A model generated the notes under the pieces. It saw nothing but the letters and a program-made list of their open reading frames with translations, was not told where the DNA came from and did no database searches. Shown here piece after piece: positions 26,419 through 28,749 of a stretch of 64,000 nt of DNA; positions within the stretch are counted from its first letter, which is position 1, and each line of letters begins with the position of its first letter. This DNA is from Actinorugispora endophytica. GTDB lineage: Bacteria > Actinomycetota > Actinomycetes > Streptosporangiales > Streptosporangiaceae. The stretch covers positions 1 to 64,000 of the forward strand of contig NZ_SNYN01000022.1 in assembly GCF_004363075.1 (NCBI RefSeq), written 5' to 3'. Both the position numbers and the translations under genes were made by a program.

Positions 26419-26445
26419 GGGCCATCCTCCTCTGCGACACTTCAA

Positions 26446-26462
26446 TAGATAGCGGTTATCTA
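26446..26462. promoter_or_regulatory. Candidate PadR operator
   Basis: TAGATA-GCGGT-TATCTA is a perfect 6-bp inverted repeat in the promoter of the PadR operon, 28 bases upstream of its GTG, in a locally AT-rich stretch. Confidence 0.6.
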
Positions 26463-26541
26463 AAAGGGCGTCAAGCCGGCCCCCTCCGCGGCCGGGGCGG
26501 AGAACTGGCGGTCCGGGGAGGCCGTCTGTTAGCTTGGCGGT

Positions 26542-26565
26542 ATGCAGTACCTGTACTTCCTCTGA
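26542..26565 (+). CDS. Seven-codon leader peptide upstream of ABC-F gene
   Basis: ATG at 26542 opens the short frame MQYLYFL followed by TGA at 26563. It lies 133 bases before the ABC-F start. Short leader ORFs rich in aromatic or aliphatic codons upstream of ribosome-protection ABC-F or erm genes are a known way to sense a drug-stalled ribosome. The ribosome site before it is weak. Translation is inferred, not shown. Confidence 0.5.
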
Positions 26566-26675
26566 GGACGACGCCCCCGGCCGCCGTTTCCGCCCCTGCA
26601 CCGGGCCCGGCCGGACGTCCCCCGCGTCGTTCTTCGCTCCCGCGGGCCGCCGCGCCTCTTCCGCGCCGCCGCCCG

Positions 26676-26690
26676 CAGGGTTTCGCCCTG
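26676..26690 (+). promoter_or_regulatory. Small hairpin next to the ABC-F ribosome site
   Basis: CAGGG (26676-26680) pairs with CCCTG (26686-26690) around TTTCG. The stem directly abuts the GGAGG site of the ABC-F gene, so it could mask or expose it depending on leader translation. The surrounding 26575-26670 is very GC-rich and can form other stems. Confidence 0.4.
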
Positions 26691-26698
26691 GAGGAAAA

Positions 26699-28354
26699 GT
26701 GCCCGCCATCACTGCTTCGCGCGCGCGTGCGCGCGTCCATCTCAGCACCGCCGACCTGCGCCTGTCCCGCGGCGGCCGACCGGTTCTGACCGGTGTCGAC
26801 CTGACCGTCTCCCCCGGCCAACGGCTGGGGGTGGTGGGAGAGAACGGGCGCGGGAAGACCACACTGCTCCAGGCCCTCGCCGGGACACTGAGACCCGACT
26901 CCGGCACGGTGCGCCGGGTCGGCACGATCGGGGTCGCCGGCCAGGAGGTCCCGATCGACGCCGACCGCACGGTCGGCGACCTGATCGACGTGGAACTCTC
27001 CCGGGTGCGCACGGCACTCCACGCGTTCGAGACGGCGACCCTCGCCCTCACCGACGGACACCCCGGCGCCGAACAGGACTACGCCGACGCGCTCGCCGAC
27101 GCGGAGGCCGTCGACGCCTGGGACGCCCACCGCCGCGTCGACGTCTCGCTCGCCGCCCTCGGCGCGGTGAGCGACCGCACCCGGACGCTGGCCGGCCTCT
27201 CCGTCGGACAGCGCTACCGCGTCCGGTTGGCCTGCCTGCTGGGCGCCGGACACGACCTGCTCCTGCTGGACGAGCCGACCAACCACCTCGACGCGGCCGG
27301 ACTGGAGCACCTGACCGCCCGGCTCCGCGAGTACCCGGGCGGGGTCGTGCTCGTCAGCCACGACCGCGCGCTGCTGGCCGACGTCGCCACCTCGGTGATC
27401 GACCTCGACCCCACCCGCGACGGCCGCCCCCGGACCTACGGCGGCGGCTACCCCGGCTACCGGGAGGGGCGCCGCGCCGAGCGGGAACGCTGGGAGACCG
27501 AGTACCGGGACCAGCAGGAGGAGCGGCGACGACTCGAACAGAACCTCTCCACCGCGCGGAACCGGCTGTCCACCGGATGGCGTCCCGACAAGGGGACCGG
27601 CAAGCACACCCGCGCGACCCGCGCGCCGGCCCTGGTGCGGGCGGTCCACCGACGCCAGGAGGAACTCCGGGCGCACGCCCTCGACGTCCCCGAACCGCCG
27701 TTGCGGTTCCAACCACCGACGCTCGGAGCGCGGCCGGAGACCACACTCCTGCGGGCCGAAGAGGTGACGGTGGACGGCAGGCTCACGACGCCGTGCTCGG
27801 CGCTCCTCGAGACCGGCGGCCGCCTGGTGGTGACCGGCCCCAACGGCTCCGGCAAGTCGACGCTGCTCTCCGTGCTCTCGGGAGAACTGACCCCCCACTC
27901 GGGGACGGTGCTGCGCGAGCCGGGCGCGCGGGTGGGGCTGCTCGGACAGGAGTCCCCGGCGCCGTCCCGGCGGACCGCCCACGAGGTCTACGAAACCGCC
28001 GTGAACCGCCTCGTCGTCTCCGGCGAGCTGCGCGAGGACGACCGGGTCGAGCTCGCGCAGCTCGGCCTGCTCCCCTCCGACACGGTCCACCGGCCGGTGG
28101 CCGAGCTGTCGGTCGGCCAGCAGCGACGACTCGACCTGGCGGTCCTGCTGGCCGCGCGACCGCACGTCCTGCTGCTCGACGAGCCGACCAACCACCTTTC
28201 GATGGCCCTGGTCGAGGACCTGTCCCGGGCGCTGGCCGCGACGGACGCCGCCGTCGTGGTGGCCACCCACGACCGACAGCTGCTCCGCGACACCGCGGCC
28301 TGGCCGCGGCTGCGGATCCGACCCACGACCCCGACGAAACCGGATCGGCCGTAA
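26699..28354 (+). CDS. ABC-F ATPase, antibiotic-resistance type
   Basis: The 551-residue cytosolic protein has two ABC domains and no membrane segment. Domain 1: Walker [10 protein letters not shown], signature [12 protein letters not shown], Walker [13 protein letters not shown]. An arginine- and glutamate-rich linker with a tip follows at about residues 260-330. Domain 2: [33 protein letters not shown]. This is the layout of ABC-F proteins that enter the ribosomal E site and displace drugs bound at the peptidyl transferase centre. GTG at 26699 with GGAGG fits; an open frame upstream has no homology. The seven-codon leader ORF supports a resistance role. Confidence 0.85.
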
Positions 28355-28355
28355 T

Positions 28356-28749
28356 AGGGTGAGCGCGGCCTCGAACTGGGGACGGACCCGGATACGGGTG
28401 CTGATCTTCTCCGAGAAGATCCTGTCGCGCGGGATGCCGTGCGCGCTGAGCGCGTCCAGCTGCGACTGCAGTTCCTGGGTGAGGTGACTGCAACGGGCGT
28501 ACCCGATGCGGATGCCCGCGCCTGGGGCGTCCGTCTCGGGCACGGCCGGCGGCGGGATACCAGGCCGCCAGGGCTGTCCGGGGCCACGGTCGGCACCCGC
28601 AGGGCCGCCTTCTTGAATCGGCCGGTGCGGTAGATCCCGGCGATCACGCCCGAGTGCGAGCGGCAGGGCGAGCCTGGCTGGACGCCGCAGCGCGGGCAGT
28701 CGTGGCGCTCGACGTCGTCGCTCTCGATGGTGCCCTGAGGGGCCGTCAC
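28356..28749 (-). pseudogene. Serine recombinase, N-terminal half, frameshifted
   Basis: Read leftwards from GTG 28749 one frame gives a Zn-ribbon with CPRCGVQPGSPCRSHSG and YRTGRFKKAALRVPT. After a frameshift near 28600 a second frame continues ADRGPGQPWRPG and the resolvase start IRIGYARCSHLTQELQSQLD, including the active Ser of ARCS, then KISTRIRVRPQFEAAL. Homology stops at about 28356, directly after the ABC-F stop. It is thus frameshifted and lacks the rest of the catalytic domain. Matching middle and C-terminal sequence appears at 33060-33341. Confidence 0.75.

Follow-up and report, generated by a model that had tools for sequence, protein, structure and literature searches.

The window, by which we mean the whole stretch of 64,000 nucleotides analyzed, carries a gene encoding an ABC-F ribosome-protection protein preceded by a short leader open reading frame (uORF). 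The features of the locus, including the predicted RNA elements, are the following:

26418 downward, divergent from the ABC-F gene: PadR regulator gene, followed by a MacB/FtsX-type exporter pair
26506..26511, plus strand: putative -35 element TGGCGG, matching the TKGMNN of actinobacterial WblC-type promoters, spacer of 18
26530..26535, plus strand: putative -10 element TAGCTT (TANNNT), 6 nt ahead of the uORF ATG
26542..26565, plus strand: uORF MQYLYFL-stop (ATG CAG TAC CTG TAC TTC CTC TGA), conserved in relatives
26557..26564, plus strand: putative anti-Shine-Dalgarno UUCCUCUG in uORF codons 6, 7 and stop, predicted to pair with UGGAGGAA at 26689-26696
26564-26574 with 26624-26634, plus strand: predicted helix P1, GAGGACGACGC/GCGUCGUUCUU, enclosing a GC-rich hairpin
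26676..26690, plus strand: CAGGG-UUUCG-CCCUG hairpin (CAGGG 26676-26680, CCCTG 26686-26690), abutting the Shine-Dalgarno (SD)
26690..26695, plus strand: SD GGAGGA of the ABC-F gene, predicted to be sequestered by the uORF
26699..28354, plus strand: ABC-F ribosome-protection protein of 551 aa, GTG start, two ABC domains

The protein shows the features expected of ARE ABC-F proteins, namely two PF00005 domains, an inter-domain linker (a sub-threshold match to ABC_tran_Xtn) and no transmembrane domain. The nearest curated profile is that of the macrolide self-resistance proteins TlrC/CarA/OleB/SrmB (NCBIfam NF000171), with a score of 337 bits against a cut-off of 800. Since this score is far under the cut-off of at least 800 bits that defines the ARE4 subfamily, the window protein is not assigned to it, and its drug spectrum is only a guess. 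A start farther upstream, in a frame open back to 26534, was considered and rejected: only 35 of the 116 relatives have this frame open, and both the SD and the start codon are conserved. Directly downstream of the gene, at 28360-28500 on the minus strand, lies a frame resembling the N-terminal part of a serine resolvase (LTQELQSQLDALSAHGIPRDRIFSEK), apparently the remnant of a broken mobile element; a Pfam search of the frame neighboring it gave no match. The interval that separates the PadR gene from the putative uORF promoter contains an inverted repeat, TAGATAgcggtTATCTA, at 26443-26462, a candidate PadR operator.

The first-pass annotation placed the MQYLYFL ORF 133 bases ahead of the ABC-F gene, and its coordinates agree with ours: the uORF spans 26542-26565 and its stop lies 133 nt from the GTG at 26699. 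The arrangement TANNNT-N6/7-[AG]TG-5..8 codons-stop occurs a single time in the 64 kb on both strands, at MQYLYFL; in random DNA of this kind, 0.6% of 330-nt stretches contain it. No match was obtained when the window was searched against Rfam at the gathering thresholds.

The search of the genus returned the window genome alone. Among 299 genomes of the same family, an orthologue was found at E<=1e-130 in 73, and the upstream regions of 70 loci were read; the automated search detected the uORF arrangement in 69 of these and in 78 of the 80 loci of a second, named set, so that the conservation in orthologous loci on which the first-pass annotation had staked its reading was observed in both. 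The second set was drawn from 84,980 species and includes Nonomuraea, Streptosporangium, Actinocorallia, Prauserella, Pseudonocardia, Nocardiopsis, Nocardia, Rhodococcus, Streptomyces, Kribbella, Geodermatophilus and other genera. The three exceptions carry, when inspected by eye, uORFs of the two classes described below (MQYYFFL, MFHHFFL, and MARGIWSQKVRSAR), which brings the short uORF to all 150 homologous loci inspected. Because the two sets share some genomes, these 150 loci do not amount to 150 independent species, and the 116 distinct leaders from the automated search, on which the statistics are based, are the safer figure. Since every one of the approximately 150 loci carries such a uORF, the actinobacterial uORF-ABC-F switches predicted here form, at the level of sequence, a real family. 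The family is apparently undescribed so far: a literature search, whose scope took in few of the subscription journals, found neither MQYLYFL nor VHLYFL nor leaderless actinobacterial ABC-F uORFs. At one locus (L061), three copies of a repeat (GGCGCTT..ACTCCCGACTTCGTCGGGAAG) interrupt the leader, and the uORF lies about 370 nt ahead of the gene.

The distance from the -10 element to the uORF start is 6 nt in 65 and 7 nt in 51 of the 116 distinct leaders, a regularity that is partly due to construction, since the search demanded TANNNT at 5-8 nt from the uORF start, yet spacings of 5 and 8 were never chosen. Because the uORFs are almost always placed exactly at TANNNT-N6/7-[AG]TG, we predict that the uORF ATG (26542) is the 5' end of the mRNA, which would make the uORF leaderless, a probable feature overlooked in the first-pass annotation. 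WblC promoters have been reported to start transcription 7-8 nt after the -10 element. In the window, the WblC box GAAAWY expected 3 bp upstream of the -35 element shows 2 of 6 matches, and the promoter does not qualify as one of the WblC/WhiB7 regulon; the AT-rich WblC box that was looked for there is absent, although many relatives have it. WblC/WhiB7-type promoters scoring at least 8/10 were found in 43% of the relatives, as compared with 0.5% of shuffles. Double control by WblC and the uORF may be a trait of the family, and is not claimed for the window, which is without a WblC-type promoter. A consensus promoter scan of the window found nothing, since the actinobacterial -35 element differs from the consensus TTGACA.

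The uORF peptides fall into two classes. Those of class I mostly have 6-8 residues and end in hydrophobic-aromatic-Leu-stop or close to it, the consensus end being [L/V/Y/H..]-[Y/F/L]-[F/Y]-L-stop (VHLYFL, MQYLYFL, VQYLFFL, VPRLFFL, VHLPLYL, MHFQLYL, VIQALIFN and MFILLFH, for example). In codons 2-4 of class I, rare AT-richer codons (CAT, CAA, TTG, CCT) occur far more often than in the ABC-F genes, which perhaps keeps the predicted leaderless 5' end unstructured. The class II peptides are longer, and most of them contain Arg/Lys-X-Arg/Lys (MARGIWSQKVRSAR, VFTASLRLRPRA, VLTASMRLRFRA, MYSGIASMRLRTGR). In the ABC-F protein tree, class II forms a single clade (support 1.0) nested within class I, which suggests a single exchange of the type of sensor within one ABC-F gene family.

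The class I peptides resemble MsrDL (MYLIFM-stop), the leader of msrD in the streptococcal mefA-msrD system, which stalls the ribosome at its own stop codon in the presence of erythromycin (Fostier et al., 2023, PMC10314930). In both cases a hydrophobic leader of 6-7 residues with Leu-x-Phe-x-stop precedes an ABC-F gene: YLYFL-stop and VHLYFL-stop show the Leu-hydrophobic-Phe-hydrophobic pattern before the stop found in MYLIFM-stop, and VHLYFL has the same length as MsrDL (6 residues) and shares Leu3 and Phe5 with it. MQYLYFL may therefore be regarded as a candidate MsrDL-like macrolide sensor. The class II leaders recall the +X+ leaders MefAL and ErmDL (MTASMRLR, MTHSMRLRFPTLNQ), since they carry TASMRLR, SLRLR, KVR or RLR, and VLTASMRLRFRA contains TASMRLR, which is identical to part of the MefAL peptide MTASMRLR; they differ in being leaderless by prediction, and they occur on orthologues of the window gene rather than in the window. 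The MsrDL-like conserved C-terminal end together with the +X+ peptides of class II points to macrolides as the inducer rather than the lincosamides, pleuromutilins and streptogramins that had been proposed in the first-pass annotation. Lincosamides, pleuromutilins and streptogramin A, which act at the peptidyl transferase center (PTC), stall ribosomes on short uORFs at the start codon; the conserved part of the present peptides is proximal to the stop, as in MsrDL, and a sister clade has peptides of the +X+ type of macrolide arrest.

The minimum-energy fold of 26542-26720 (z -2.4) pairs the end of the uORF with the SD region, as does the RNAalifold consensus of class I leader groups; helix P1 is based on the minimum-energy fold and on the RNAalifold consensus of 22 leaders. 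The first-pass annotation had drawn attention to the CAGGG/CCCTG stem that abuts the SD. This stem is present in the sequence and in the fold, and a similar small stem, the sequence of which is not conserved, occurs at this position in some relatives, but it was rejected as the lock: only its last base overlaps the SD, the rest of which lies outside the stem, and the fold pairs the SD with the uORF. In the 87 class I leaders, the mean probability of SD-uORF pairing is 0.86. When the uORF and 9 nt beyond it, which a ribosome halted at the stop codon should cover, were masked in these leaders, the unpaired fraction of the SD rose from 0.08 to 0.28 (p ~1e-14), whereas masking an equal mid-leader stretch left it at 0.08. 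In the RNA model, the SD is paired and is freed when the uORF is occupied, as would be expected of a translational attenuator. The window SD itself is predicted to pair with the uORF with a probability of 0.96, and masking has only a small effect on it (unpaired 0.03 free and 0.13 with the uORF masked) because it refolds locally in the model.

An SD is naturally complementary to Phe-Leu codons, and the anti-SD may be in part a by-product of encoding Phe-Leu; four controls of the pairing were therefore run. The cognate uORF/SD duplex has an energy of -15.3 kcal/mol, as against -13.3 for swapped loci (sd 0.29), and synonymous recoding lowers the uORF-SD pairing in 72 of the 87 leaders. The final Leu codon is CTC in 76/87 leaders, as compared with 29/90 among the internal Leu codons of the same uORFs, and the pairing amounts to 0.80 in register and to at most 0.59 when slid by 1-4. 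In a covariation count over 85 leaders, in which relatedness inflates the counts, several variable pairs beat most shuffles, and one pair is C-G in 58 leaders and G-C in 9. In L030, L031, and L092, a change from CTC to CTG is matched by one from GAGG to CAGG; several other leaders ending in CTG (L045, L100) are without the compensating SD base. The uORF-SD link is weaker in the class II leaders (paired fraction about 0.51).

Taken together, these data suggest, with a probability that we put at about 0.72, that a leaderless-uORF attenuator, most likely a translational one, makes the ABC-F protein inducible by macrolide-type antibiotics. We infer the transcription start, the stalling, the identity of the drug and the induction as follows. 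With the predicted mRNA start at the ATG at 26542, the ribosome could begin on the leaderless start codon of the uORF. Without the drug, MQYLYFL would be finished and released and the ribosome would depart; UUCCUCUG would then pair with UGGAGGAA, closing the branched leader and hiding the ABC-F start site. With the drug, the nascent chain, with its Y-F-L end at the PTC, would prevent release at the uORF stop codon, and the stalled ribosome would cover all 24 nt of the uORF and about 9 nt beyond. The anti-SD would lie within this ribosome, so that the SD would be freed and the ABC-F protein made, and this product would then clear the drug from the ribosomes. Of the antibiotic attenuation put forward in the first-pass annotation, what stands is that the short leader ORF likely controls the ABC-F gene via ribosome stalling; the class of drug and the lock are not supported.

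Ribosome-mediated attenuation may alternatively act on transcription: as in msrD, vmlR and lmrC, the leader would form a terminator whose folding is prevented by a ribosome stalled on the uORF. Most of the ARE ABC-F leaders studied, including the actinobacterial lmrC, use this mechanism, the present leader is strongly structured (z -2.4), and actinobacterial terminators may be without a U tract. This mechanism is nevertheless less favored, and in our opinion unlikely, because no terminator-like site was found in the window leader and at least 6 T in any 8 nt between the uORF and the SD were found in only 5 of the 116 leaders; the covarying helix, in addition, links the uORF with the SD itself. 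Attenuation here probably acts on translation. As regards the inducer, it is rather improbable that a PTC drug (a lincosamide, a pleuromutilin or streptogramin A) stalls the ribosome at or near the uORF start: such drugs induce the known actinobacterial ARE5 leaders (MLV, MVGDDDISG), and on a uORF of 7 codons a stall at any early codon would mask the anti-SD as well, but stalling at the start codon does not need the conservation that is concentrated at the stop-proximal residues, the nested clade has +X+ macrolide peptides instead, and the same genome has a separate ABC-F paralogue whose uORF, of 2 codons, is of the PLSA kind.

The peptide might also be irrelevant, the uORF serving as a translated anti-SD that senses any slowdown of translation. 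The constraint that pairing places on codons 6-7 and the wide variation of the peptide upstream of its last three residues are consistent with this idea, which the behavior of codons 2-4, varying synonymously while the residues keep one chemical class, and the switch of the class II leaders to a specific known arrest motif make quite improbable. The remaining alternative, that the short ORF is an untranslated chance sequence and that the gene is under promoter control only, by WblC or by the divergent PadR, draws on the PadR gene and on the WblC-type promoters of the relatives mentioned above; with a uORF in all 150 loci, beyond chance, and no WblC box in the window itself, it is hardly tenable. 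Attenuation of the biosynthetic kind by the supply of Tyr or Phe was dropped, as the target gene is not biosynthetic and the composition of the peptide varies (Pro, His, Gln, Arg).

In the classical translational attenuators of ermC and cat, a stall in the leader frees a sequestered SD. The masking predicted here is direct, since the anti-SD would be formed by the uORF's own stop-proximal codons, and comes nearest to the cat type. The window uORF is predicted to stall the ribosome at its stop codon as MsrDL does. MsrDL, however, has its own SD, works best with a UAA stop and is followed by a Rho-independent terminator (PMC10314930), while the window uORF is predicted to be leaderless, has the stop UGA (as do 74 of the 87 class I leaders), and is predicted to lock by uORF-SD pairing, no terminator having been found in the window; the window ABC-F is also only distantly related to msrD. 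The switch would work like MsrDL combined with a classical SD-masking attenuator, yet it is not classified as a member of the MsrDL group because the stop codon, the absence of a terminator and the leaderless start differ and the stall itself is predicted. The ARE5 attenuators lmrC, tiaA and are5sc of Streptomyces likewise control actinobacterial ABC-F genes by ribosome-mediated attenuation (PMC8546547, PMC12421871). Those of are5sc and tiaA have ribosome binding sites ahead of their uORFs (MLV and MVGDDDISG, respectively), and the ARE5 attenuators are induced by lincosamides, streptogramin A and pleuromutilins through a terminator/antiterminator (PMC8546547, PMC12421871), unlike the leaderless uORF, macrolide induction and SD pairing predicted here. 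Short uORFs also precede the ABC-F genes of CplR (MR[I/M]) and VmlR2 (MK[L/Q]), the SD of CplR being hidden in its own leader; these uORFs have 3 codons and serve for PLSA drugs (PMC10201436). They resemble not the window leader but that of a paralogue, L002.

This paralogous ABC-F gene (45% identical; G000:C12:124763-126352, L002/L162) lies in the same genome and is preceded by a 2-codon uORF, GTG AAG TAA (VK*), predicted to be leaderless. Its orthologues L163-L173 have the uORFs VRH*, VRN*, VRY*, and VRK*, most of them behind textbook WblC boxes. Because the paralogue's uORF resembles the MR[I/M] of CplR and the MK[L/Q] of VmlR2, this genome seems to contain two ABC-F switches for drugs of different classes. 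A third ABC-F gene (32% identical; G000:C28, L003) has TAGGGT-N7-GTG CGC GCT CCG GAC TGA 122 nt before the start of the match, where VRAPD* is a possible leaderless uORF.

Related copies of the window gene were also found on plasmids in Microbacterium, Gordonia, Janibacter and Glutamicibacter, so the gene travels on plasmids too. At three plasmid loci, in Microbacterium paraoxydans (L183), Janibacter melonis (L184) and Glutamicibacter protophormiae (L185), the orthologues are ~57-62% identical and are followed, in apparent operons, by a Tet(V)/Mef-like MFS transporter, an arrangement on plasmids like that of mefA-msrD. A VHLYFL or MHLYFL uORF, predicted to be leaderless, is found in each of the three.

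The chances seem even that actinobacteria possess a large family of leaderless uORFs which sense antibiotics and block their own termination, in which the same codons provide both the arrest peptide and the anti-SD, and in which one lineage has exchanged the stop-stalling sensor for a +X+ macrolide sensor while keeping the ABC-F gene. In 2023, MsrDL was stated to be the only antibiotic-dependent leader described that blocks its own termination (PMC10314930). If the family is as proposed, macrolide sensors that block termination, so far represented by MsrDL alone, would be available in dozens of natural variants, so that the sequence rules of drug-dependent release failure would become directly testable. 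A leaderless start, an arrest peptide and an anti-SD within the same 24 nt would make a very compact switch, and the two classes of peptide would provide a case of natural exchange of two types of sensor on one resistance gene.
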